Positions 3,796 to 56,700 of a stretch of 64,000 nucleotides of DNA are shown here, one piece after another. This DNA comes from Acorus gramineus. Lineage: Eukaryota > Streptophyta > Magnoliopsida > Acorales > Acoraceae. The first letter of the stretch is position 1. Every line of letters begins with the position of its first letter. A program made the position numbers and the translations under genes. The stretch lies in assembly GCA_030737835.1 (NCBI GenBank), contig CM060856.1, positions 19,651,941 to 19,715,940 of the forward strand, written 5' to 3'. The notes beneath the pieces are model-generated. The model worked only from the letters and a program-made list of their open reading frames with translations. It ran no database searches and was not told where the DNA came from.

Positions 3796-4556
3796 TTAAT
3801 TAGAGGTCCCTGGACTTGTTTTTATTTTCTTTAGGTCCCTCAGTTAGTGGTAGTATTATATTTAGATCCTTCCATCGAACCTAATTTTTTTCCTTCCTCT
3901 TTTACCCCCAACTCAATATGTTTTTCTTTTTCTCCCCAGACAAATAAAAATGTGAGACCACCTCCGCCAGAACCACCTCTCCCCCCACTGCGCCCCCCTC
4001 CAACAACCCCCCACCAGCCGATCTCGCCTCCACCAGCGCTCCCAATTGCACCCCCGACCTCCTCCCACCGGAGCCTGACCGCCTCCCGCGACCCCATCGC
4101 CGCCCACACCCCCTCCTGCTAACCATCCGCAACATCCTAGATCCCGACCTCCCCCAAGCCCCAATCTCGCCCATCGATATCGGTGTGCAAACTGCGAATA
4201 ACAGTGTACACAGTAAAACACACAGAACCTGTAACAGGTATAAGAGTGTACACACTGCAGATAACAGTGTACACAGTGAAACACACAAAACCTTGTAACA
4301 GATAAAAGAGTGTACACACTACGCATAACAGTGTACACAGTGTAAGACACAGAACCCGTAACAGGTATAAGAGTGTATACATTGCGCATAACAGTGTACA
4401 TACTTAGGGTATAACGGGAAGAATACGCACAAAATGAAATGGCAGTTAGTGCCAAGGACCAAAAAAAATAGCTCAACCACTTTAAGGACCTAAAGAAAAT
4501 AAAAAAAATATAAAAATCTATTGTTATTACAGAGGTATCTCCAGGGACCTCTAATT
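3796..4556. mobile_element. MITE with TTAATTAGAGGTCCCTGG inverted ends
   Basis: The left end TTAATTAGAGGTCCCTGG and the right end CCAGGGACCTCTAATTAA are near-perfect inverted repeats about 760 bp apart. The interior has two unusual parts: a C-rich, proline-coding-like block at 3955-4150 and a four-copy tandem array at 4190-4410. No transposase is seen. The C-rich block could be captured genic DNA, but it matches no family I know. Confidence 0.65.
4190..4410. repeat. Tandem array, unit about 63 bp, about 3.5 copies
   Basis: ATAACAGTGTACACAGT recurs at about 4198, 4261, 4326 and, shortened, at 4387. Between copies come a degenerate ACACAGAACC(T)GTAACAG block and GTATAAGAGTGTACACAC. The copies differ by several substitutions, so the array is not very recent. 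It is wholly inside the MITE at 3796-4556. Confidence 0.75.
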
Positions 4557-4865
4557 AATTTATCCGTGAAGTTTTTACTCATTGATTAATCATATATTTG
4601 CTCCAGTAAGTCTCGGTGGCTGACACTTTGTTCTTTATATATATAGGTTATAGAGAGAAGTGTTCAAATCTTCTTTCCCCAAGTCAATCCAAAGTAGCCT
4701 GCTCTACGTTGCTGACAAGAGACCCTTCCCAACACAATGGTCCTCTGTTTTTTAGGTTGATCATGAAAAACAAACACTTCTCAACCACTATAACCATTGG
4801 GTATCATGTATAGAATGACCAATCTGATGGTCCACAGGTGGTGCATACACCATACTTTAATGTTT

Positions 4866-5321
4866 CATTTGGATAGTGATATAAGTTATTCTGGATTTAT
4901 GACTATATTCTAGGAATAAATTATTATACTAATAGAATAAGTTATTTTTTATTTGGTTGTGATTTTATTTATTTTTGTTGAGAAACATAATAATGAAGCT
5001 TTTGTTGTTCGGTTGACCATAGATAAAATGTGGATAAAATGTAAATAAGATATGGATAAAGATTTATAAAAGGTGAAGCATTGATTTGATTTGTGAGCCC
5101 TCTAATTTATAAGAAGTGATGACAATTGATTTGATAGCATGGTCCCTAGCTTTATACCAGTGGAATGGATTGGGTGGAATAATGGGAGTCTTAAAATTAA
5201 AATATCAATTTATTCTCACATATTCTGGCATGGTTATACCTACTTATTCCTTGCACAAACAACTCTTTAGGCGTATTCTCCCATATCCTCTCTATTTCTC
5301 TCCTATTTTGTGATCCAAACG
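4866..5321. mobile_element. MITE family A, copy 1
   Basis: The inverted ends are CATTTGGATA (left) and ATCCAAACG (right). The interior matches, on the opposite strand, the copy at 25679-26661: an AAATGTAAATAAGATATGGA-type segment next to TTTATAAAAGGTGA, and a Tourist/hAT-like 'GTTTGG' terminus. There is no coding potential. Related copies lie near 42120, 47000 and 53640. Confidence 0.6.
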
Positions 5322-6335
5322 ATAAGTGTATGTACAACTTTAGTAGTGGTGTGTCTCTTTACGTGACACAGCATAAGACTTGTCACAAGGGTTTTCCTTG
5401 TGGTAAACCACAAATGATCTTAACGTGTATAAGACCATATTTCCTGACTAAATATCACAAACCATTACCAAACTTATTTGATGTCCTAGACATCAGTATT
5501 TCCCTTGAAATGATAATTTTGATTTATTATAGTTATCCCGAATCGTATTCTTATCAAATCTTACAACTCCATTGACCTATTGGGTAAAAGAATGTTATCC
5601 AACCATCTTATCATGTCTCATAAATCGTTAATGTGAAACTAACATCTAACTAAAAATGTTACAAATCTCACGTGTTAAATATATGAGATTTCATATATCA
5701 GTTCGATGTTGTCGCAATAGTTCTCATGAATTATGATTCATATGGATGGTCCTCTACCGCATACATAAGAAGTTTTTATGTCCATTGTGTCTTGATCATG
5801 AAATCGATCAATCCCTCTGTATATAATATGAATACCATAATTATTTGATCGAACAAGGAAGCTAAACTGAAAAACATCGATGACGACAACTATAATTGGG
5901 ATGCTCTAGAGCTGAATGAAGAACATCCTGTGTTTGCTTGGATGAAGGTTTGCCTACTGAAGATTTGACCACTTCCTACTAGCATAGCTAGATGAAGCTT
6001 CACTCTTAACACTTTCTTTCGCCAAACTTAATTTCATTGAGTTGGTTTCTTCATGTCGCGGGCTCACAGTCGGCGGTTGGTCTCACCCGAGTCGAGTAAG
6101 GATAAACCTTTGAGAGTCTAGATTCTTTGGTTTTTCATGGCAGGAATAATTTTTCTTATATTTAAGCAATCGTCACACAGGGTTTGTATGACGAGTCTGG
6201 ATCTTCTGTTGTGCAATTTGTGCTGTGATCGTGTTGTTGTTTGTCCATGGCCCCGCCAGGTCTCACCCAATAATCCAACGGTGCAAACCCAAGTTTATTT
6301 ATATGTTGGACCCCACCCTTTTTCTTTTTCTTTAA
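5322..6335. other. Intergenic, no gene seen
   Basis: AT-rich sequence with only short, unconvincing reading frames. A short GC-richer patch near 6050-6110 contains GCGGGCTCACAGTCGGCGG, but I could not assign it. Confidence 0.6.
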
Positions 6336-6342
6336 ATGCAAG

Positions 6343-6452
6343 TCTTGCACTCTCGAGAACAACTCATACAAATCTTTTTGTTTGCTTTTAATTTGTTGTC
6401 TTGCTCTCTCGAAAACAACTCATACAAGTCTTTTTGTTTGCTTTTAATTTGC
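6343..6452. repeat. Direct duplication, unit about 55 bp
   Basis: Two adjacent copies share CTCTCGA(G/A)AACAACTC and TTTTTGTTTGCTTTTAATTTG, with few differences. A third partial copy, CTTGCTTTTAATTTGTTTA, is found at 8496-8514 on the far side of the element at 6456-8490. That fits insertion of the element into this array. Confidence 0.7.
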
Positions 6453-6705
6453 TTAGGCTGCGTTTGGTTCCACTTAAATTCAGTGCTTATTGGACTGAAA
6501 CCGGAAATTTTCAGTACTTTTGTGTTTATTGTCTGTTTGGTAGAGACCCAAATAAGTGCTCAATTGTATCCGCTTTTCACACAAATATCCGGATTTTTTC
6601 AGCCCCGGAGACGTTACTTTATTTTTCCGCTCTCGTGTTACGCCTATTACTCCCCCACGTGAAAAGACCTGGATACCCCTGCTACTTTGATTTATTTACG
6701 ACCGG

Positions 6706-6713
6706 TATATAAG
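6706..6713 (+). promoter_or_regulatory. TATA-like box upstream of the LRR frame
   Basis: TATATAAG lies 137 bp before the ATG at 6850. It is followed by a CT-rich, leader-like stretch (TTCTCTCTCTCTCCTCAC) and repeated AGAGAAACCCTAA, both common in plant 5' leaders. This suggests the fragment carried a promoter and 5' UTR with it. Confidence 0.45.
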
Positions 6714-6849
6714 CCCCATTTCGACCTGTTCTCTCTCTCTCCTCACACATTTCTCATTCCCATCTAGTCGACTCGTCCGAGAGAAACCCTAATAAAATGT
6801 GATTGGTTTCAGATCGAATTCGAACCTCCGACGATCAGAGAAACCCTAA

Positions 6850-7950
6850 ATGCGAGACCCTCTCCACCTCGTGATCCTCCTCTCCCTCCTCGTCCGATCG
6901 GTGTCCGTCGCCGCGTCGGCTCCGCTCAACGACGACGTCCTCGGCCTGATCGTCTTCAAGGCGGACCTCCTCGACCCCGCCTCGGAACTCGCGTCCTGGG
7001 ACGACGAGGACGCCGACAGCCCGTGCGGCTGGGCCGGGGTCACCTGCGACCCGCGGTCGGGCCGGGTCACCGACCTCGCCCTCGACTCGCGCTCCCTCTC
7101 AGGCCGGGTCGGCCCGCGCGGGCTCCTCCAGCTCCGCTACCTTCGCCTCCTCTCCCTCTCCAACAACAACTTCACGGGGACCCTCTCCGCCGACCTCGCC
7201 GGGCTCGACGGCCTCCGCGTGGTGGACCTCAGCAGCAACGCCTTGTCGGGTCCGATCCCCGACGAGTTATTCCACAAATGCGGGTCGCTTCGGTCAGTTT
7301 CGTTGGCGAACAATGCCTTCGAAGGGGAGCTCCCGCCGAGCCTCGGATCCTGCGCGGGCCTCTCGTACCTCAACCTCTCGTCGAACGGGATCTCCGGTCC
7401 GTTACCCGCCGGGGTCTGGTCACTGAACGGGTTGCGGTCGCTTGACCTCTCCGATAATTCTCTCGTTGGGGAGATTCCGAGTGGGATCGAGAGCCTGTAC
7501 AATCTCCGAACGATCAGTTTGAGACGGAATTCGCTTTCGGGGAAGGTCCCGGAAGGGATTGGGGGTTGTCTTCTGTTGAAATCGATCGATCTTAGTGAGA
7601 ATTCGCTCTCCGGTGGGCTCCCGGACTCAATGCGGAACCTCACGATGTGCGGTTCTTTGAGCCTGAGCTCGAATTCGTTCGTCGGAGAGTTGCCCGATTG
7701 GATTGGGGAGATGAGCAGTCTGCAAACCTTGGATTTGTCGAGGAACAGATTCATTGGACACATCCCGGGATCGATTGGGAACCTTCGAATGCTGAAGGAA
7801 CTCAATCTATCACGAAATGGGTTCACCGGAGCCTTGCCGGAATCAATGGAGGGTTGCAAGGGCCTCACGAACGTCGACTTGAGTAGGAATTCCTTGACGG
7901 GCGATGTCCCGTCGTGGGTTTTCGAATTGGGGGTGCAGAGGATCTGTTGA
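6850..7950 (+). CDS. Truncated LRR receptor-like kinase, ectodomain only (PXC2/IRK type)
   Basis: The 366-residue frame begins with a hydrophobic signal peptide (about residues 5-25, likely cut near AASA). An LRR N-terminal cap follows with DDVLGLIVFKADLLDP and the paired-cysteine motif SPCGWAGVTCDP (about 58-69). After that come about eleven plant-type leucine-rich repeats with LSGxIP-like cores. The order and wording match the PXC2/IRK subfamily of plasma-membrane receptor kinases, which run to roughly 960-1,000 residues. Here the frame stops after WVFELGVQRIC, so the later repeats, the transmembrane segment and the kinase are absent. No kinase motif is found downstream. The frame has no internal stop and is far richer in GC than its surroundings. 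It may be a recent, dead gene capture, or it could encode a secreted LRR protein. The neighbouring inverted ends favour capture. Confidence 0.8.
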   Translation: MRDPLHLVILLSLLVRSVSVAASAPLNDDVLGLIVFKADLLDPASELASWDDEDADSPCGWAGVTCDPRSGRVTDLALDSRSLSGRVGPRGLLQLRYLRLLSLSNNNFTGTLSADLAGLDGLRVVDLSSNALSGPIPDELFHKCGSLRSVSLANNAFEGELPPSLGSCAGLSYLNLSSNGISGPLPAGVWSLNGLRSLDLSDNSLVGEIPSGIESLYNLRTISLRRNSLSGKVPEGIGGCLLLKSIDLSENSLSGGLPDSMRNLTMCGSLSLSSNSFVGELPDWIGEMSSLQTLDLSRNRFIGHIPGSIGNLRMLKELNLSRNGFTGALPESMEGCKGLTNVDLSRNSLTGDVPSWVFELGVQRIC

Positions 7951-7963
7951 CGGGCGATGTCCC
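7894..7963 (+). repeat. 17-bp direct repeat at the LRR breakpoint
   Basis: TTGACGGGCGATGTCCC occurs at 7894-7910 inside the coding frame and again at 7947-7963, where it creates the TGA stop and ends the LRR homology. The 53-bp spacing suggests a templated or slippage duplication when the fragment was broken or captured. Confidence 0.85.
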
Positions 7964-8490
7964 TCCTCCACTGTTGCAGAACAAGATATGATATGCAGCT
8001 CTTAACACGGAAATGTTATGTTTGTCAAATATTCAATTCTTTCATGCTATGGATATATGTGGTTACCAAGTTTTCAAACATGGTTGATGTAGATTGCATA
8101 TTTAACACGGCATAAATAGACATATGTCTCATTTATTTATTTTTAAATCTGTATAGGCTTCCATTTGGTTCTCCTAAGTAATTAAATTGCAGTGGTGTAG
8201 TACATGTATTTTAATCACCATACCAAAATATTTTTTTTTTATAAATAGAAAAAATAAGCAAATCTTCATGTTTTTAACCAAACATCAAATAACAATCAAC
8301 ACTTATTAAATGGACCAAAATACCCTTCTAATAAGCTCTACTGTTCAGTGGTGAACCAAACAAACTTATCTATATAAGTGCTTATAATTTCTGTTGAACC
8401 AAACAGTTTTTTTTTCTAAACTGATTAAAACTTATCAGAACTTATATAATCTGCACTTAAAATCAACATTTCGCTGAACCAAACGGCCCC

Positions 8491-9853
8491 TTATACTTGC
8501 TTTTAATTTGTTTATACTTGGATCCATACCATGGGCCCCACAATTTTTTGTTTTTTTGTTTTTGTTTTTTGTTTGCTTTCACATGGTTACAAAAGTTTGT
8601 CTAGGGTTCTTCATTTTTAGTGATTAGAGTTTCTTACGGCAGGTTGTTTTTTTTTGGTGTCCAATTTTTTTCATTGCAGAAACTATCTCTTGCAATTGCT
8701 GGTTGTTCGAGATGAGAGACATTTTGTGTAACCATGCTATTAGAGTCATAAGAGATAAATTAAATATTATAAAAATTGATAGTCAATATATATATTAAAA
8801 AGATTGACAAGAAAAACAAAATATGAAATTGTGCAAGACATGCTGGCATAACATTGAGGTGGATCACTAGATCCAAAGTTGCAACATACCTATCAATATA
8901 AGTTTCTATGCTCCAAGTTTAACAAGATATCAAACTCAGTTTAATTTGAAAGTGATGAACATTTAATTTTTCTATTAAACATGTTGATGAATTAAGCAAC
9001 ATTCTTGAAAGCATGTTAAATTTGCAAATGGATGGTTAAGTACATGATAAGGACAATCACAACAATGTTTCTATTACATGTGAGGATAATGTCCATACAG
9101 ATTATTTAGACAAATCAAATGTCATTCAAGCAAAGAGCATCGAGGAAAACAAATAATCAAAAGTAATCTGGAGAAAGCCTTAGCAAATAACAAGAAGACA
9201 TCAAATCCTCAATCATTAAAGGTAAAAAAATTAAGGAATTTTTTTTTTAATTGACTTACCATTTACAAAACCAAAAAATAGTTCATCTAGAATTTATATA
9301 TTCTTTTATCCGAAAATGGCAACCATGTCAAACGCATCTATTAAACTCCCCAGTATAAAAGATATTCATTATATCACAAGTCACTCTCCTCTACCGAGCA
9401 ATTCTTACAAAGCGTATGGTACTCTCTTCTGCTGATTTGATCAACCTTCACTTTCGAAGGGGTGTGAGATCTGCAAGCTCCAACGACATTGTTAATTCTT
9501 TGTAAAGAATACCAGGACGATGAGCTTCTATGTAATTGATATTCCACCAAGAATAAAAAAACGATAGTAATAATAAAGAAAACAAAAGTAAATTATCCAA
9601 GTTTAAACTAATTTTATGATTATAGAGTTTATTTATAGATTAAATAATCTTAACAAATTAAGATTTCAATTCTTAACAAATCTTTTAAATTAAATACAAA
9701 AAATAACTTACAACCATCGATTTGACTTTCAAGACGATCCTCTGAACTATAGAGTTGGTCTATACAAACACGTGGATATAAAAATAGTGATTCTAATCTC
9801 TGTTTTTTCTCTTAAGTGCCCACATACATATATAAATATCTGCATCAAATCCC
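8491..9853. other. Intergenic, no gene seen
   Basis: AT-rich sequence with T runs at about 8540-8670 and no convincing reading frame. The last 100 bp or so would be the 3' flank of the minus-strand P450. Confidence 0.6.
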
Positions 9854-11314
9854 TCACGCTCTCGGAACGATCTTCACTTTGAGAGGGTTCTTCATAGCCA
9901 CAGTAAACTCAACCTTCTCTGACAACAAATCGATCTCCTCTCCCTCCGCAGCCTCCCATTCAAACTCCCTCACCAAATTTGCCACAAAGTACTCCAAATG
10001 AAGCAACGCGAGCCCCAACCCGGGGCAAATCCTCCTCCCCACCCCGAACGGCATCATCTTTATCTCCCGACTCCCCGTTATATCCACCCCTTCCGCTTCC
10101 CCGCCTCTCATGAACCTCTCCGGCCTAAACTCCATCGGCTCCTCCCACACTTTCTCATCCCACCCAATATCAGCAACCATGACATTTAGCGACGCATTCT
10201 TCGGTATAACATACCCATCAATGCAGACCTCCTCCATCACAGCGTGCGGCAGCACAAAGTGCCCGGGAGGGTGCCTCCGCAGCCCCTCCATCACCACTGC
10301 CTTCACGTACGGCATCCTTTGCAAGTCCTCCTCCACCGCCTCCTCTGCTTCTTCCCCAACCACACCCTTAATCTCTTCCAAGATCTTTGCCTGCACGTGT
10401 CGGTGCTTCACGACGTTCGCCATGATCCATTGGAGCGTCGTCGATGTAGTGTCGGTCCCCGCGTTGAGAAACTCCGAGCACAGGTTCACCATCTCATCGT
10501 CATTGAGACCCCTGTCATCGAGTCTCAGCTTGAGCAGAGAATCCGCGTAACTGAACACATTCTGTTCTTTCTTTGCCTTCATAAGGGGAAGGAACATCCC
10601 CTTCTGCCGCCGTCGAATGTCCACGAGCCTGTCCCACCTCTTCTTGAAGACCAGCCTCGTCAGCCTCGGCATGAAAGTGAAGACGCTGAGCTTCCCGGAG
10701 TACAAGAGTAGCTCCCGCTGGACGTCCTCAATGTCCCTAATGACCTTCTCTTCAAGTTTCCCTCCGAAGCACATCAGCGAGAGGAGCGCGAACATGGAGT
10801 ACCGGAAGCTCTCGACAGGGACGACGACGCGCGCGTCGTGCGCCTGGTTCATGAGGTCCTGCGCGAGGACGCCGAGGACCCACTTGCGCGCGGGGCCGTA
10901 GGAGCGGACGCGCGAGGGGTGGAGGATCTCCGAAGTGAGGTTGCGGCGGAGGAGGCGCCATTGCGGGCCGTATTGGGAGGCGATGATGGTGCAGCTCGGG
11001 ACGCTCGGGGGAGGGCGGTCCGCGAAGGTGGCGCCGTTGTTGACGAAGAGTTTGTGGGCTAGGTCGCGTTGGGTGATGAAGATGAACGGGCGGGAGCCGA
11101 TTGGGATTGTTATGATTGGGCCGTACTTGATGTGGAGGCGGCGGATGGTTGGTAGGAGGTCGGACAGGGAGATGAAGAACCAGGAGAGGTTGCCTATGAT
11201 GGGTAGAGTGGGCGGGCCTGGTGGGAGCTTGCGTTTTGAGTTGTAGTGGATGAAAAGCAATGTGAGGATTATAGGGAGGGAGATGGTGAGGGTGATGAGA
11301 AGCCAGTCTTCCAT
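9854..11314 (-). CDS. CYP89A: Cytochrome P450, CYP89A type
   Basis: The frame is a 486-residue intronless P450 with every landmark in place. It has an N-terminal membrane anchor (about residues 4-23), the proline hinge LPPGPP (30-35), C-helix WRLLR (119-123), I-helix AGTDTT (285-290), K-helix EGLR (343-346), FRPERF (396-401) and the haem loop PFGVGRRICPG with ligand Cys430. Length and wording fit the CYP89A subfamily of A-type microsomal P450s. Members act on the ER surface with NADPH-P450 reductase; Arabidopsis CYP89A9 oxidises chlorophyll catabolites, but the substrate here cannot be read from sequence. The start Met is followed directly by the anchor, and a TATA-like site lies about 105 bp upstream. 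I see no break, so it is probably functional. It stands alone, with no cluster partner. It is unrelated to the broken P450 piece at 20-24 kb, which is a different subfamily. Confidence 0.95.
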   Translation of the reverse strand: MEDWLLITLTISLPIILTLLFIHYNSKRKLPPGPPTLPIIGNLSWFFISLSDLLPTIRRLHIKYGPIITIPIGSRPFIFITQRDLAHKLFVNNGATFADRPPPSVPSCTIIASQYGPQWRLLRRNLTSEILHPSRVRSYGPARKWVLGVLAQDLMNQAHDARVVVPVESFRYSMFALLSLMCFGGKLEEKVIRDIEDVQRELLLYSGKLSVFTFMPRLTRLVFKKRWDRLVDIRRRQKGMFLPLMKAKKEQNVFSYADSLLKLRLDDRGLNDDEMVNLCSEFLNAGTDTTSTTLQWIMANVVKHRHVQAKILEEIKGVVGEEAEEAVEEDLQRMPYVKAVVMEGLRRHPPGHFVLPHAVMEEVCIDGYVIPKNASLNVMVADIGWDEKVWEEPMEFRPERFMRGGEAEGVDITGSREIKMMPFGVGRRICPGLGLALLHLEYFVANLVREFEWEAAEGEEIDLLSEKVEFTVAMKNPLKVKIVPRA

Positions 11315-15827: not shown

Positions 15828-16829
15828 TCAACTCATAACCTGCGCTTCCAGATCATTGTCTTGCTTTATATCAGACACTCGAAGATTACTGAGTAAAGCA
15901 TCTCGCCCCATCAAAACAATTTGGAAAAAGATTCCAACTTGTTTTGAGAGAAGATCAAGCCCACTGGACAGCTTTTCTGCACTCTCACCCAATTCTGATA
16001 CTGACTTCTGTAACAAATCTATTTCATCATGGCCCGCACCATCAGTCAATGCATAAAACTTCTCTGCACATTTATCCACCTCTTCAAGCTCTTTCAATGT
16101 TACAACTCTACCAGAAAGTAACAACATTCTCATCTCCCCATTAATTGTCACTTGCAAATCATTGAAGACCTTGGACCACAAAAACTTGTTCGGAACATCC
16201 AGGTCCATCAACATCTTAGGAGAACTCAAAATCGCTGCAATAAAGGTGCTACAGACAAATATAGTCTGAACCTTTACCCCGTACATTTCTCTCATGAGTA
16301 CCTTTCCTTTTGCTGAATTCCTAGACTTCACCATATGAAGGGAAGAATGAAGACCTTGTAAGATTGAAGAACAATTCTCAAGCTTTGGACTTGTTGAGTG
16401 AATTTTATGTAATTTCCAATCATCGAGAGAGGCACGAGCTTGGATGAGCTGTCCGGATGAAGGGGAGCCGCTTGAGAAGTCCAGAACATGCAAAACATAT
16501 TGGAGCAGTAGTTGACCTTGGTCAAGCTGGGAGAGTTCAGAACTAAATGCAATGCAAATATCAAGCAACTTCACGGAGTTGTCCAAATACATGTCCATCC
16601 ACTTGTCCTCCCAGTCAGAGATAGGAAACTGGAGATCAGTTATCAAGACTTTGATGTCATTGTGTGTTTCAGACAGGGATTCCATCGCACACCTCAACCA
16701 TGATAAACTGATGACATCACAGCTATTCTTTGGCTTAAGCCTCTTCAGCCTCTCAGTCAAAGTTTCCTCGAAAGAATTTAACAGAGAAAGAAGCCTTGGA
16801 GACAGGTAAGAAACCTTGGGAAAGATCAT
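15828..16829 (-). CDS. BPS1: BPS1-like protein with a premature upstream stop
   Basis: The 333-residue frame matches the BYPASS1 family, plant proteins known to restrain production of a mobile root-derived signal. Family landmarks include the SPRLLSLLNSFEETL start, DVISLSWLRCAMESLSETH, the SVKLLDICIAFSSELSQLDQ block, NSAKGKVLMREMYGVKVQT (about residues 170-188) and the C-terminal FFQIVLMGRDALLSNLR. Family members begin about 18 residues earlier, with a MARP...PFGNPF-type leader. That leader is present here: an ATG at 16884-16886 opens MSRPHDGHRPSFPFGNPF in the same frame. It is followed by TGA (16830-16832), where relatives have Arg (CGA is one substitution away), and then by the conserved Met at 16827-16829. 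The rest is intact. Either translation starts at the internal Met, or the gene is a new pseudogene, or the base is a sequencing or assembly error. Confidence 0.88.
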   Translation of the reverse strand: MIFPKVSYLSPRLLSLLNSFEETLTERLKRLKPKNSCDVISLSWLRCAMESLSETHNDIKVLITDLQFPISDWEDKWMDMYLDNSVKLLDICIAFSSELSQLDQGQLLLQYVLHVLDFSSGSPSSGQLIQARASLDDWKLHKIHSTSPKLENCSSILQGLHSSLHMVKSRNSAKGKVLMREMYGVKVQTIFVCSTFIAAILSSPKMLMDLDVPNKFLWSKVFNDLQVTINGEMRMLLLSGRVVTLKELEEVDKCAEKFYALTDGAGHDEIDLLQKSVSELGESAEKLSSGLDLLSKQVGIFFQIVLMGRDALLSNLRVSDIKQDNDLEAQVMS

Positions 16830-32710: not shown

Positions 32711-33464
32711 TGTAAAATAAATCATAATAGCACTTAGAATCTTGATTAACATGTTTGCGAATACTATAATCATATATTTCTGTCATGCGGAATCATTATA
32801 GTATATATACATATATATATACACACACACACATATACAAACCTTTCTCCATGGTAAGTAGTCTTCTTTTGGTACAAGGACTTGAAGAAGAATAGAAGGA
32901 TTCTTCACTCTCCTATCTCTCTATGGAGTGGACTTACTCTTGCTTGTGCAAACACAAGATGTTGTGAGACATGACAAATGGGTTGGGAGTCCACTCCCTT
33001 TTATAGATGGAGAGGGGGAACCCTCCCACACTCAAACATAAATTGGATTCTTAAAACCCATTGAAGAATCCAATGAACCTACTAAATGTTTTTGGGAATG
33101 TATCTAATAATGGGTGGGTGTTGGGAATACAAAGACATTGAATATTTTCCTCATTCCAATGGCTGTGCATGTACACAATTATTCCATACATTGTGTACCA
33201 CTTTAAAGAGATGTATATACATTGTCTATCACTTAATGAAAATGTACATACATTATGTACCACTTAATGGGATACACACAATTACTCTTTATACATTGTA
33301 TATTATTCAATGGATAGTCATGGGAATTGAACCACATAAAAACTTAATTAATTTATACTTAATTGATTTACTCTTCCAATGTACCCTTTTATGAACCAAA
33401 TAATGAAATGGAACATTGATCATTACATGTCCATATTCATTTCTTAATGGGTCACATTCTTACA
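32711..33464. mobile_element. Solo LTR nested in the Copia fossil
   Basis: The 754-bp block starts TGTAAAATAA and ends CATTCTTACA. It is flanked by TAAGC on both sides (32706-32710 and 33465-33469), a 5-bp target duplication. It has no coding region and repeated GTGTACCACTTAATGG-type words in its middle. It therefore looks like an LTR left after recombination of a later, different element. Family unresolved. Confidence 0.8.
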
Positions 33465-36399
33465 TAAGCGACCTCCAAAGCTAGAAAATATCGAAGAAGT
33501 CCGAGGTCCTTCATCTCAAACTGATGCTGAAGATGCTGCTTGACTAACTGAATATGAGAGGAATCATCACTGGTGATAATCATGTCATCAACATAAAGTA
33601 ACAGAATGGTACGGTGGCAACCCGAAGTATGAACAAACATAGCCGGATCTGAAGCACTCGGAACAAACACAACAGAGTGAATGGCCTTAGTGAATCGAGC
33701 AAACCAAGCTCGAGGAGCCTGTTTGAGACCATAGAGAGCCCGTCGAAGATGACATACGTGTCCAGATGGATGAGAAAGACCTGGAGGGGGAGACATATAT
33801 ACCTCCTCTGATAAATCACCATGAAGAAATGCATTCTTGACATCGAGCTGGTAAATAGACCATTGACGGACAGAAGCGACAGAAATTAAGGTGCGAACAA
33901 TAGTCATCTTGGCCACAAAAGCGAAAGTCTCATCATAATCAATCCCATGCCGCTGAGTAAAACCGCGAGCGACTAAACGAGCTTTATGACGCTCAATCGA
34001 ACCATCCGAGTGAGTCTTGATCTTGTAGACCCACTTACAACCAATGGGAACCTTACCTGCAGAAGAGGGACAAGATCCCAAGTATGAGTGCGTTGTAACG
34101 CACTAAGTTCCTCTATCATAGCATGGTCCCATTCAGGAATACCAACTGTCTCGTAATATGATTGGGGCTCATAATGAGATGAAACAGCTGCAAGAAAGCT
34201 CTGAAAATGGGGAGAAAATGAGTCAGAAGAAACTAGACTTAGCCTCTGAGGAGGACGACGATCACGAGGTGGATTGCGGCGAGGAGCTGGTGCAGGGTCG
34301 ACTGCGGGTGCATTGTCGACTGCCGGTCAAACAACATCAGGCACAAAAGCAACAATAGGGGAACTTGGCTCACATGAATCGTCTGCAGGAGGAGATGGCA
34401 AGGTCATAGATGGGACAGATGAGGGACTATATGCAGGTGGGACAGACGATGGCAAGGTCGTAGATGGGATAGGTGAGGGATTGAATGCAGGTAGGACAGA
34501 CGATGGCAAGATCGTAGATGGGATAGGTGAGGGACTGGATGTAGGTGGGACAAACGATAGAGAGGACTCAGGAGTCGAGAAATCCAGAAAAATAAGGTCA
34601 TCAACAGTAGACGGAGGAAGTGGAGCCGGAGGTGATGGAAGAGCATAATAAGGAAAATGCTCCCAAAAGGTGACATGACAAGAAATGCAAAGACGTCGTA
34701 CAATAGGATCGTAACACTTGTAACCCTTATGGTGAATACTATATCCAAAGAAAACACACATAGCAGAACGAGGAGAAAGCTTGGTGCGTTCAGTGGGAGG
34801 AAGAAGAACAAAACATGTGCAACCAAAAACACGAAGACGGGAATAATCAGGAGGCTGATTGTGAAGTCGCTCAGATGGTGAGATACCACCAGTAACGGAT
34901 GATGGAGTGCGATTAATGAGATACACACTTGTGAGAACAGCCTCACCCCAAAACTCAACAGGGACCGATGCAGAAAGAAGTAAAGATTGAGTCATCTCAA
35001 GAATGTGACGATGTTTTTGCTCAGCAACTCCATTTTGTTGATGAGCATATAAGGAGTGGAGAACTGAGGAAGAGTGCCTTGGGATGCCAAAAATTCACGA
35101 AAAGTCTTAGAACAATATTCACCACCACAATCAGAGCGTAGCACCTTCATACGACGAGAAAATTGGGTCTCAACCATGGTAGCAAAAGAAGTATAAATAC
35201 ACAATAAATCCGAACGACTAGACAGAAGATAAAGCCAAGTGAAACGAGAATAGTCGTTAACAAAAATAACATAATATCGATTTTCCCCTTTTAAAAAAAT
35301 AGGAGATGGACCACAAATATCATAATGTATTAAATCAAAGGGAGACTTGAAAATATGCGAACTTGAAGGGAAGGGGAGAGCCACAGGCTTACCCAATTTA
35401 CACCCCACACATGGTTGAAGATCCGTACGAGAAAATGATCCTAATGCACCGGTGCTAACAAGATATCGGAGTCTAGGTTGAGACAAATGGTCAAGACGAC
35501 GATGCCAAAGATCAAAAGGGGAAAGGGAAGAGGAAGTTGTATCTAACCGAACGGAGGCAACGGAAGGCTGAGGAATATAAAGCTAATCCATGTAATAGAG
35601 TCTACCATGTCGTCGTCCAGTCCCAATCTGTCTCCCAGTAAGTTGATCCTGAATAGAACAAGATGATGAATCAAATGTGATCGTATAACCAAGGTCTGCA
35701 AGCTGACTGACAGAAAACAAACTCATAGAAAGTTTAGGAACGTGCAAAACATTTGGCATACTAAATCGATGAGAATGATTGGAAAGAATGCCAGAGCTCC
35801 AGACAGGCATAGAGAACCATCAGCAGTGCGAATAAGTGAAGGAGAATGTGGTGGTGTACAATTAACAAGAATCGATGCATCCGATGTCATATGATGGGAA
35901 GCCCCAGAATCAAGAACCCATGAGGTAATCAGTATACCTCGTACGAGAGTAGAAGTAGACTGAACGGAACCAGAAAGATCTATACCAATCAATGATCGTA
36001 ATATAACATAAAGCTGTTGATATTGATCTCGTAGCCCTTTAAATGTGCAATAAGTTGAGCTGTGGTAACCTGTGACTGAGCAGAAGCAATGCGAGGTTCA
36101 ATTGATGTACAAATCTGATCCTGACAAAGAGAAGATTGAGCAGACGACTTGATTGACAAGGAGAAAGCGGCATCTTGAGCATGTTTTCTAGCCAACTTGC
36201 GGCAATCGAGAGTCACATGACCAGAGACGTAACAATATCTGTGATCCATAGTACTTGCACAACAATAGATCCAAATAAACAGTATCTGATGGATCCAAAA
36301 CAGTCACAGATGCGTAGATCACGAAAAGATGATCAAAATGTGTACCAATATGACTATATTCAGAGTCCGAATGAGCCCGTAGCGGTCAGATAAAGAAAG

Positions 36400-42490: not shown

Positions 42491-44170
42491 TGTTACAATC
42501 AAAGAGAAAGAATGGCATTCATTGTATCCCTCTTATGGTCTAAGCCCTTTATATATACAAGTACATGGGAGTTACACGTGTAATACACAATATATGCAAT
42601 GACATAATTAAATGTATAATCTAACAGCCCCCCTAAAACTCACAATCATACAAAGTGAGTTTACGAATGAGAAACTGAAATCGAGGAATTGGATGTGACT
42701 TCGTAAAGAAATCAGCAAGCTGTTCAACAGAGGAAATTAATATGAGGAAGCGATAGTGTTTCTGCAAGAAAGTATTGACGAACGAAGTGACAATCGATCT
42801 CAATGTGTTTAGTCCTCTCGTGAAAGACCGGATTGCTGACAATCTGAATAGCAGACTGGTTATCACAATGAAGAGGAGTAAGACCAGTCATAGCAACTCC
42901 TAGATTCACCAAGAGACGTCTAAGATGAAAATCTTCTTGGTGGTAATGGCCACGGCTTGATACTCAGCCTCGGTGCTGGAAAGGAAAACAACCTCCCATT
43001 TTTTGCTGCGCCAGGAGATGATGAAATCTCCAAGAAATATGCAGAACTCAGTGATGGAGCGTCAATTGGTCGAATCTCCAACCCAATTAGCATCAGTGTT
43101 AACCCTTAGAACCAAAGTTGAAGAAGATGACATATAGATCAATCTGGTGATAGTACCACATAAATATCTAAGAATTCGCATAAGACCACCATAATGAACT
43201 AATCGAGGAGCCGAGACAAATTGACTGACAATACTGATGGAATGAGCAATATCTGGTCTGGTGATGCAGAGATACACAAGATGACCCACGATCTGTCTAT
43301 ATCGAATAGGGTCTGGAAGGAGCTCATCATCCGTAGAACGAAGCTTCACATGAAGCTCAAGAGGGGTACCTACACTACAGGTAACTAAAAGGGCAGCTCG
43401 CTCTAGAATGTCAGTTGTGTACTTCTGCTGAGAAAGTAGAATCCCACAATCACTTTGTGCAATCTCGAGACCAAAGAAGTAGCGAAGAGTATTGAAATCT
43501 TTCATTTGAAATTCTCGACTGAGGTGATTCTTGACCAGAGTAATACCGGTGGAGTTATCGCCATTGATAATCATGTTATCAACGTATAGAAGAAGGATAA
43601 CCCGACCCTGCGAGGAGGATCACACAAACATAGAGTAGTCCTGAAGGCTCTCAATAAAATCAGTTGCCATAATGACAGTGCTAAACACTCAAATCAGGCA
43701 TGGGGAGCCTGTTTGAGACCATATATAGCGCACTGAAAATGACAAACATACTAAGAGGGAGTGCGGAAACCTAGAGGTAGCTGCATATAAACAACCTCAG
43801 ATAAATTATCATGAAGAAGAGCATTCTTCACATCCATCTGAAAGAGATGCCAACAACGAACAGCAGCAACAGCAAGGAGGGTGCGAACAATAGTCATCTG
43901 AGCAACTAAAGCGAAGGTCTCATAGTCAATACCATACTATTGTGTGAAACCTCTTACAATAAGACGAGTCTTATGTCGGTCAATGGATATATCAGGGCAA
44001 TGTTTGATCTTGAAGATCCATTTGCAACTAATAGGTGTAACACCATCCGGAAGGAGAACAACATCCCAGGTCTGTGTCTGCTCAAACGTCAAAAACTCAA
44101 CCAAGGCCTGCTCCCACTCAGGGTACTCGACTGCCTCTTAGTAAGATTGGGGCTCACAGTAGGCATGTAT
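42491..44170 (-). mobile_element. Ty1/Copia fragment (fossil) with one LTR
   Basis: One LTR of 136 bp (42491-42626, TGTTACAATC...ATCTAACA) lies next to a G-rich polypurine tract. Beyond it on the minus strand come RNase H and reverse-transcriptase regions (for example MKDFNTLRYFFGLEIAQSD), ending near 44170. The other LTR and the upstream parts are not in the window. It is a separate copy from the 31.7-37.3 kb element but of similar build. It is broken in several places and appears older. Confidence 0.9.
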
Positions 44171-53700: not shown

Positions 53701-56700
53701 TCGTTGCCTTTTATGTTATTTTCATTAGGAAACGTAAAAAATGATATTTTTGTTGTTTGATTTATCTTAGATAAAGTGATGATAAGTTGTGGATAAGAGA
53801 TAGATAAGAGAGTTTATAATTTTTAAAATAACAACTGTACCCCTACATAAATTATTTATGTTTTATAATAAGAATGAAAGATGCATGTGATATATGATAG
53901 ATGTGACAGTTTTTAGAATGTGTATAAGAGGTTTAGGTGAAACAAATATTTTAAAATGATAAAAATGATATTTTTATTTATTGGCATTGATAAGCCATAA
54001 TAAGCAATTCTAGCAACCCCTTAAAATAGTTATTAAACTTAATCATAACTTTTTCAGACATAACTACATACATGTTTGTTAAAACTTATAAGCTGCAGAT
54101 TAATTATAGCTTTTAGCTTAACATAAGTAGTTATTTCATGTTTGTTTAAACTTATTGGAACTTATTTAAATTAAAAACAGCTTAAAAAGTCTCTAAGCTG
54201 TAAAAGGAATGCTTTTGATATTATAACTTATAAAATGCATTAATTTTTTTTGTTTTGAACACTCGTGCCCTCGATCATTTTTACTAATAACACGTATATC
54301 TATTTTTTTACTATTACACCAAAAATCACTAAACCATATTTCATCTTCTCAATGTTTTTACTATTACAAAAAATACATTATCAATTTTTTTTTAATTGCA
54401 TTTGTCACTCAGTCAATTAAAATTCTATAATGTAATATTTGAAAAATATTATAGTGATTTTAAAATATTATTTATGTTAATTTAATTTCCTTTTAAATAT
54501 TTATAAAATTAATTTTATAAGTAAAAATCAACTTATTTAATCAAATATGAATCAATTTTTTTACTTTTACAGTGCAAGGGTATTTTTGACAATTGTACAG
54601 CAAAAGACTCTCTTACAACTTATTAAACAAACATCTACTGCTGCTTATTCACTGCTTTTAAACAATTATAACAAACATGTCTACAACTTATCAAAAAAGT
54701 TATAATCTATAATCTATAAGTTATAATCTATAATTTGTAAATTTAAGCTGTAACAAACATGGCCTACGAGGGTTTATAAAACAAACAATTTTAATTCATT
54801 ATTCTCATGTATTCCCCCTTATTCTGGGTTTATGTTTCACCCCAAACGGGGTTAAGATGGGTATCCCTAAATCTAGCAAATTTAATTGAATTTGAAATCA
54901 TAGTTTCATTGGAATCTTATAGAATTTGGATTGTTTTGGATTAGATTAAGTATATATAGGAATATGTTCGGAATTAAAATTACAATTATGTGAGTTGTCA
55001 TAATCACCTATACAGATGAGAATTGAAAATGAATACTTGGATTTTTTTTTTGTTATTTCAGTTTATCCTAGATTTTATACTCCACTAATTAAATTGGGTC
55101 GAGTGCAATTAAAAATTATAATTCCAATTTTAATTAATTTCTCATAATCAAACATGCTAAATATGTAATGATGTGACACTATTTTAACTTTTTGTGAAAT
55201 GTCCATTCAAGATTACATAGTAAGATATTATCTGTTTTATCTTTTAATAGAGTTACATCTTTAAAACGCGTATTGATGTGTAGGAGTTGTGTTCACATGT
55301 AAACAACAAACTATCTTTCCTCAATTAGACTTTGTGGGACTAAATCGTGGTGTGGGTTATAACCTAACTTCTCATCCAACATGAGTCTACTGGGATCTTA
55401 GCTAGCCCAGTCCACCACCTTAAATGGACCACATGTGACAACCAATCACTTCTAACATGTTTGGAAAAAAAGTTAATTTTATAAGATTTAGTAATATAAT
55501 CAACAACTCACTTGAGTGATGGGATCTAAAGTTATGATTGAATTCTATTCTATCAAGTCTGACATGTATGTGAAGCATGTGAGATTTCGATAGCTTTACA
55601 CGAACAGTCTACTTGAAAATTAATACAAATATGGTTGGATTGAGCCCTGAATATTTTAAATCTCCCCCACTTTACTTTTCTTGATACCTCTGATAAGGGG
55701 CTAGTCAAAACACTACAATCCGCCCCTTCTTTTGGCCCATTTTATCAATCCAAGTATATATGCACTCAAAATAAAAATACATGAATTTTAAGTAAGCTTG
55801 TCACTATACCTCATTTGTAACCATTATATTGTACCATGTAACATATCAAATGGATCCCTACACAATCGCCACTCATTATTATACATGTTCTCCTCGATCT
55901 GCTCCTCTCATTCACAATTCAAATATGTTCTTTTGATTTTTATCAAAATGAAGATGCCTACAATTTCCTTATAAAAAAAACACAGGTTGGCGCGGAGTTC
56001 TTTGGCACATTCATACTCATATTCGGGGCCACGGCCGCGCCCATCGTGAACCAGAAGTACAACGGAGCCGAGACTCTCATAGGCAACGCCGCCAGCGCCG
56101 GACTCGCCATCATGCTCGTCATTCTCTCAACGGGTCACATCTCCGGCGCTCACGTCAATCCCTCCATCACCATCGCCTTCGCCGTCCTCCGCCACTTCCC
56201 CTGGATCCAAGTCCCCGCATACATCGCCGCACAGGTCTCCGCCTCCATCTGCGCCTCATTCGCGCTCAAGGGCATCTACCACCCCTTCATGTCGGGAGGG
56301 GTCACCGTCCCCTCCATTCCCACCGGGCAGGCGTTCGCGCTCGAGTTCATGATCTCGTTCAATCTCTTGTTCGTCGTCACCGCCGTCGCCACCGACACTC
56401 GTGCGGTGAGTGTAGAGATTGAGTTCAGTCAGTGCTCCATTCATCCGTTCATGTTTAAGACTTTCATTGGAGATGGGCTTTGATTTAATAATAACTTAAT
56501 TACAACGGATGATATTTCAAATTTAGGTTGGGGAGTTGGCGGGACTTGCAGTTGGGGCTACCGTTATGTTGAACATACTCATCGCCGGGTACGTTATATA
56601 TTTATGTTTATGCATGTGCGCTCAGTTCACTCCAATAAAAGGATCCTTTTAATTCAATCACATTGTTCAGTTTAATATAATGCCACAAACATTAAGTTCA

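Follow-up and report, generated by a model that had tools for sequence, protein, structure and literature searches.

How does the beginning of a receptor-kinase gene come to lie between the ends of a transposon, and what kind of transposon carries it? The question is raised by positions 6456-8490 of a 64,000-nucleotide stretch of Acorus gramineus DNA (C10:19651941-19715940; called the window in what follows), for which a first-pass annotation had proposed a Pack-Harbinger element carrying the 5' third of an LRR receptor-kinase gene. The assembly in which we searched has 398.6 Mb. Several other frames are found in the window: an uninterrupted cytochrome P450 frame of 486 amino acids lies about 1.4 kb beyond the element (9854-11314, minus strand), a ROH1-like/BPS1 frame is located at 15828-16829 (minus strand), and a partial aquaporin (MIP) frame at 56046-56483 (plus strand). 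Moreover, there are two RVT_2 reverse-transcriptase pieces on the minus strand (33452-34081 and 43062-43574), which we take to come from Copia-type retroelements.

Ends, second copy and host site of the unit

The DNA from 6456 to 8490 is one mobile unit of 2035 bp: it has inverted ends, it is bordered by TTA on both sides, and a near-identical copy is present on C7 between unrelated flanks. The left terminal inverted repeat (TIR) GGCTGCGTTTGGTTC (6456-6470, plus strand) and the right one (8476-8490, minus strand; reverse complement GGGGCCGTTTGGTTC) agree at 12 of 15 bases when the two ends are compared pairwise, and both fit the G(N)5GTT motif of PIF-like TIRs (PMC2213677). The target-site duplication TTA stands directly outside, at 6453-6455 and 8491-8493. 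The inverted ends and the outer TTA had thus been placed correctly in the first-pass annotation, and so had the flanks, which it regarded as a single tandem array that had been split: if they are rejoined over a single TTA, two 21-bp units are restored that are alike at 20 of 21 positions. Of the 21 pairs, 18 lie across the join (17 alike), and the remaining three fall within the right flank. When the score was restricted to the pairs across the join, a value at least as high as the observed one occurred in 4 of 5000 random TTA pairs, and among the 6422 local TTA pairs the only one as good was the observed pair itself. Matching triplets on both sides are found in 8 of the 11 elements that were inspected with both ends: TTA in the window element, L016, L017, L024 and L028, TAA in L014 and L029, and TTC in L025. 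The triplets do not match in two cases (the C7 copy and L015), and one case is ambiguous (L013).

When the genome was searched with the whole unit, 44 matches were obtained (the best 40 of 856 candidates were scored). Among the matches listed, the best after the unit itself is C7:16460749-16462785, which covers query positions 1-2034 of 2035 with 98.6% identity. It is a further copy with the same termini, as the first-pass annotation had suggested looking for. The two copies differ by four substitutions and by gaps of 1, 11 and 14 bp, and their 3-kb flanks have no long similarity in common. The C10 and C7 copies in their distinct surroundings indicate that the gene piece and both ends have moved as a unit, as expected of a Pack-TYPE element. 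The outer triplets of the C7 copy are TTA on the left and, depending on how the end is placed, TCA or GTC on the right, and the duplication is therefore imperfect. The gaps bear on the history of the two copies: 14 bp that the window copy lacks occur in the C7 copy and, with little change, in L012, L020 and L021, and 11 bp that are absent from the C7 copy belong to a piece of leader that is also found in L013 and L026. Because relatives carry each of the two missing stretches, neither present copy is, judged by these gaps, the ancestor of the other, and the capture predates their split.

The unit sits in a dispersed host repeat, the left half of which extends from 6194 to 6455 (plus strand) and contains a 56-bp local duplication (6342-6451), and the right half from 8497 to 8689 (plus strand). 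A search with the left flank (5900-6455), which lies partly in this repeat, gave 12 matches (11 candidates, all 11 scored). In five of the eight relatives of the host repeat that were fetched (L033, L034, L035, L036 and L038), the two flanks are found together without the element: their matches overlap or are at most about 41 bp apart, as compared to 2 kb in the window. In the other three (L032, L037 and L039), the right flank was not found beside the left flank, and these were not counted. The main left-flank matches stop at 6340-6396; owing to the 56-bp duplication, L035 and L036 have a second placement, which reaches 6451. The related repeats were read from BLAST placements, since the local duplication blurred the MAFFT alignment. 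They show that the left and right flanks are parts of one repeat, but locate the insertion only approximately, short of the exact base. They are related sites without the element rather than alleles, and to that extent they bear out the check for an empty site that the first-pass annotation had suggested.

The same observations speak to the idea that two independent MITEs lie on either side of a plain, truncated duplication of the receptor gene. The first-pass annotation had considered that a MITE at 8156-8490, if shown to be an independent insertion with its own target duplication, would undermine its proposal. There is indeed a TIR-like motif at 8156, and the stretch is partly self-complementary (half against half, it scores 26, the top of 500 shuffles being 25). 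However, 8156 is not a boundary: similarity runs unbroken across this position in L012, L021, L022 and L023, and the stretch belongs to a right arm of 509 bp. An own duplication is absent, the triplet being ATA on the 8156 side and TTA on the right. Since the repetition of the whole unit on C7 with other flanks and the joint occurrence of the flanks in the related repeats contradict two separate insertions, we rejected this very improbable reading.

Two arms and the superfamily

The left arm (6456-6798, plus strand) comprises the transposon 5' end, a TATA-like site TATATAAG (6706-6713, identified by eye) and a leader, and it is shared with relatives. Its first 338 bp are found with at least 94% identity in at least eight places, the window element and the C7 copy included, with weaker relatives beyond (42 matches in the 338-bp search; the best 40 of 142 candidates were scored), and the run 6760-6798 is exactly common to the window, L015 and L016. 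Because the left end recurs in the genome, and the leader up to 6798 in L015 and L016, the TATA-like site and the leader are, by this comparison, those of the transposon rather than of the gene. The first-pass annotation had attributed both to the enclosed gene fragment; the LRR gene fragment itself does lie inside the element, whereas the site and the leader to 6798 are transposon DNA.

The right arm (7982-8490, plus strand) has a different affinity. It is 95.6% identical to L012 over query positions 1527-2034 and 82-86% identical to L021, L022 and L023, but only 77-81% identical to the right ends of L013-L017. From this pattern of similarity, the element is a chimera of two Harbinger subfamilies.

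To which superfamily the chimera belongs is indicated by L024 and L025, which share both ends with it at 75-78% identity and encode DDE_Tnp_4; L025 additionally encodes Myb_DNA-bind_3, a Myb/SANT protein. The evidence from these two domains comes from relatives at that distance rather than from those with closer left ends. DDE_Tnp_4 is matched at least 150 times in the genome (150 of 410 candidates scored). The Pfam domains in the main inner frame of the element are of the LRR type only, with no transposase among them. Because relatives that share both ends encode DDE_Tnp_4, and one of them the Myb/SANT protein as well, we assign the element to the non-autonomous PIF/Harbinger transposons, i.e. 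as a Pack-PIF, with a probability of about 0.94. Two observations count against this identity: the right triplet of the C7 copy is TCA or GTC rather than TTA, and the TIRs are imperfect, with 12 of 15 bases in agreement.

The best known gene carriers in plants are the Pack-MULEs, and a Pack-MULE or hAT element would accordingly be the first alternative to come to mind. Pack-MULEs make target duplications of about 9-11 bp. No duplication of 8 to 11 bp is present here, where 3 of 8, 5 of 9, 2 of 10 and 3 of 11 flank bases agree, and target duplications of MULE or hAT length were therefore rejected. As the relatives with both ends encode DDE_Tnp_4, in one case with Myb/SANT, and the flanking triplets are mostly TTA or TAA, the probability of such a carrier is close to nil. 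The Harbinger assignment is paralleled by the PIF/Harbinger element MtPH-A6 of Medicago, which has the TIR GGGTCCGTTTGGTTC, as compared to GGGGCCGTTTGGTTC in the window element, and a 3-bp duplication (PMC2213677). MtPH-A6 belongs to another species, and its likeness to the window element is known from these two features of the published description.

The receptor gene piece and its acquisition

Parent-gene DNA occupies 6796-7945 (plus strand): 54 bp of leader, the first three of which are common with the transposon, followed by exon 1 sequence of 365 codons plus one base. It is 98.78% identical to C8:5513383-5514532 over 1150 bp. The uninterrupted open frame at 6850-7950 (plus strand) encodes 366 amino acids, with an N-terminal segment, an LRRNT_2 domain and LRRs (by Pfam), and ends one codon past the parent DNA; the frame of the C7 copy has 366 amino acids as well and likewise extends a single codon beyond the gene DNA. 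On C8, a complete LRR receptor-kinase gene with two exons was found, just as the first-pass annotation had suggested searching for: a 485-aa LRR frame runs into a GTAAGT splice donor and is separated by about 1 kb from a second frame of 480 amino acids with a kinase domain (Pfam). Together, the two frames align to residues 24-954 of a 964-aa IRK-type protein, and a paralogue on C5 is 83% identical to the parent. The captured piece lies wholly within exon 1 and its 54-bp leader. The window element thus has what defines a Pack-TYPE element, host-gene DNA between TIRs and an intact parent with LRRs and kinase elsewhere. For the receptor we use the name PXC2/IRK-type, which we presume from the first-pass annotation and from comparison with an unreferenced IRK-type protein sequence, not from a database. 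In tblastn, this protein is 58% identical to the window over 361 amino acids; at E values up to 1, it matched the window only within 6922-7944, and no kinase was found. A PDB sequence search also pointed to kinship with LRR receptors. Taken together, the C8 parent, the C7 copy and the relatives with both ends and DDE_Tnp_4 bear out the initial proposal of a Pack-Harbinger element with an LRR gene piece.

The joins between gene and transposon retain a scar. On the left, the transposon leader reaches to 6798 and the parent DNA starts at 6796, with AAT (6796-6798) present in both templates; one base is changed at 6799. On the right, parent DNA up to 7945 is followed by a single base, a 17-bp filler (7947-7963, plus strand), a 23-bp filler (7961-7983, plus strand) and the right arm. 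The first filler is an exact second copy of 7894-7910, suggesting a back-slip in the parent template. The second stems from the transposon leader, is exact in L013 and L026, and overlaps the first by CCC. With the L026 leader, 23 consecutive bases agree; when 7946-7990 was shuffled 5000 times, not a single shuffle reached a run of 14 bp against that leader. The right arm begins at 7982, CA being common to the arm and the 23-bp filler.

We consider it quite probable, judging from this scar, that the gene piece was acquired by template-switching repair synthesis, because switching accounts for the order of the scar, whereas plain fusion of neighbouring elements leaves the two fillers unexplained. 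Copying would start on the transposon leader, switch at the 3-bp match AAT into the 5' leader of the receptor gene and run for 1150 bp. It would then slip back within the parent template, recopy 17 bp, and switch at CCC to 23 bp of transposon leader. Another Harbinger element would contribute the right arm, attached through an overlap of 2 bp (CA), and a transposase acting in trans, from relatives such as L024 or L025, would have moved the chimera at least once. The overlaps of 2-3 bp at the joins are weak evidence if taken alone.

For the capture step, a fusion of neighbours has been proposed for Pack-TYPE elements and is favoured in the Pack-PIF section of the same paper (PMC8903248): two Harbinger elements would flank the 5' part of the receptor gene, lose their inner ends and move together. 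Arms from two different subfamilies are also expected from such a fusion, and the published maize Pack-PIF examples lend it further weight. However, it predicts contiguous native DNA as far as the second element, and the right join of the window element holds the 17-bp recopy of the gene and the 23-bp leader of the left-arm type, a filler of the kind that template switching leaves. Moreover, the 9.15 kb that were read around the C8 gene are free of transposon arms, which disfavours a scenario in which two elements enclosed the gene and mobilised it, and the sister subfamily has a different gene piece in its interior, together with a short filler. We therefore regard fusion as unlikely.

This second capture is seen in L014, L015, L016 and L041, which carry 1.34 kb of another gene, L014-L016 with the left end of the family of the window element; in the stretch that was read of L041 (C2:32796963), the left end was not found. 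The carriers of this Zein-binding-domain gene sit on C32 and C2. Its parent, L040 on C9, is 98% identical and has the Zein-binding domain, and in L017 and L026 this place is occupied by a different stretch of about 140-150 bp. The right join of the second capture contains a 10-bp filler, and the same 10 bp come again after another 23 bp; taken alone, this filler is again weak evidence for template switching. Two other elements were rejected as gene captures: the middle of L013 (36 of 13499 candidates scored) and most of the interior of L018 (40 of 109 candidates scored) match repeats in many places rather than a single gene. In the Harbinger-family element L013, a repeat of about 3 kb that is common elsewhere in the genome occupies about 3900-6956.

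The first-pass annotation had considered a Harbinger carrier of such a fragment unusual. Carriers of gene fragments as a class do have precedents in this superfamily: Pack-PIF gene fragments have been published for maize and rice (PMC8903248), and PIF transduplications are known in grapevine (PMC2528002). As in the maize and rice Pack-PIFs, the window element combines PIF/Harbinger TIRs, TTA/TAA duplications, captured host-gene DNA, several copies and DNA gained inside the element, but unlike the two captures reported for maize cluster 18 (163 and 58 bp; PMC8903248), its gene piece is 1150 bp long and includes the start codon of the gene. Similarly, the account of Pifvine-3 of grapevine describes PIF elements with genomic sequence including exons and introns, sometimes common to several copies, the extra DNA being located in the long 5' region of PIF-family elements (PMC2528002). 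In contrast, the main frame of the window element has no transposase domain, and the gene piece stands directly behind the transposon leader. With the Pack-TIRs of animals, the element shares microhomology at breakpoints, fillers and later transposition that makes copies (PMC8277862). Gap-filling and FoSTeST models have been put forward for these animal elements, with gap filling proposed for Pack-MULEs too; the published text, which concerns animals, calls the applicability of both models to plant Pack-MULEs worth exploring (PMC8277862). For the capture of a receptor kinase by Pack elements, no published case was found in a limited literature search judged by titles, which does not establish that there is none.

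A predicted receptor fragment and its meaning

Transcription from the promoter-like region of the transposon, if it takes place, would yield a message for an LRR protein that has neither a membrane anchor nor a kinase, its frame being preceded by a start-stop frame. The hydrophobic N-terminus of the predicted product looks, by eye, like a signal peptide. It is tempting to speculate that the element makes a putative soluble receptor decoy under the control of a transposon promoter, and we consider this quite unlikely. It is true that the 366-aa frame is intact in both copies, that the parent's start codon has been kept with the TATA-like site upstream, and that the captured lineage has acquired four nonsynonymous and three synonymous derived changes on about 815:280 sites and no stop. 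These changes are, however, far too few to show selection, and given how little the element has diverged from the parent, an open frame is expected by default. The C7 copy has one further nonsynonymous change, and the start-stop upstream frame ATGTGA (6797-6802, plus strand) lies at the capture join, the parent having no ATG there. Between the captured piece and the parent, three further changes are without polarity, and two nonsynonymous changes fall on the parent's side. Alternatively, RNA of the element could feed small-RNA silencing, possibly against the parent. The widest claim, that the Harbinger family repeatedly captures host genes by template-switching repair and here gives rise to a decoy of the PXC2/IRK-type receptor that could antagonise its parent, is in our view just as doubtful as the decoy itself.

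According to a 2026 review, it may be by a mechanism yet to be discovered that DNA transposons capture unlinked genes (PMC13317346). In one plant transposon family, the captures of two genes can be read in a single genome together with the parents, capture-free relatives and scars, and the repair-synthesis model thereby becomes directly testable in a plant superfamily other than the MULEs.
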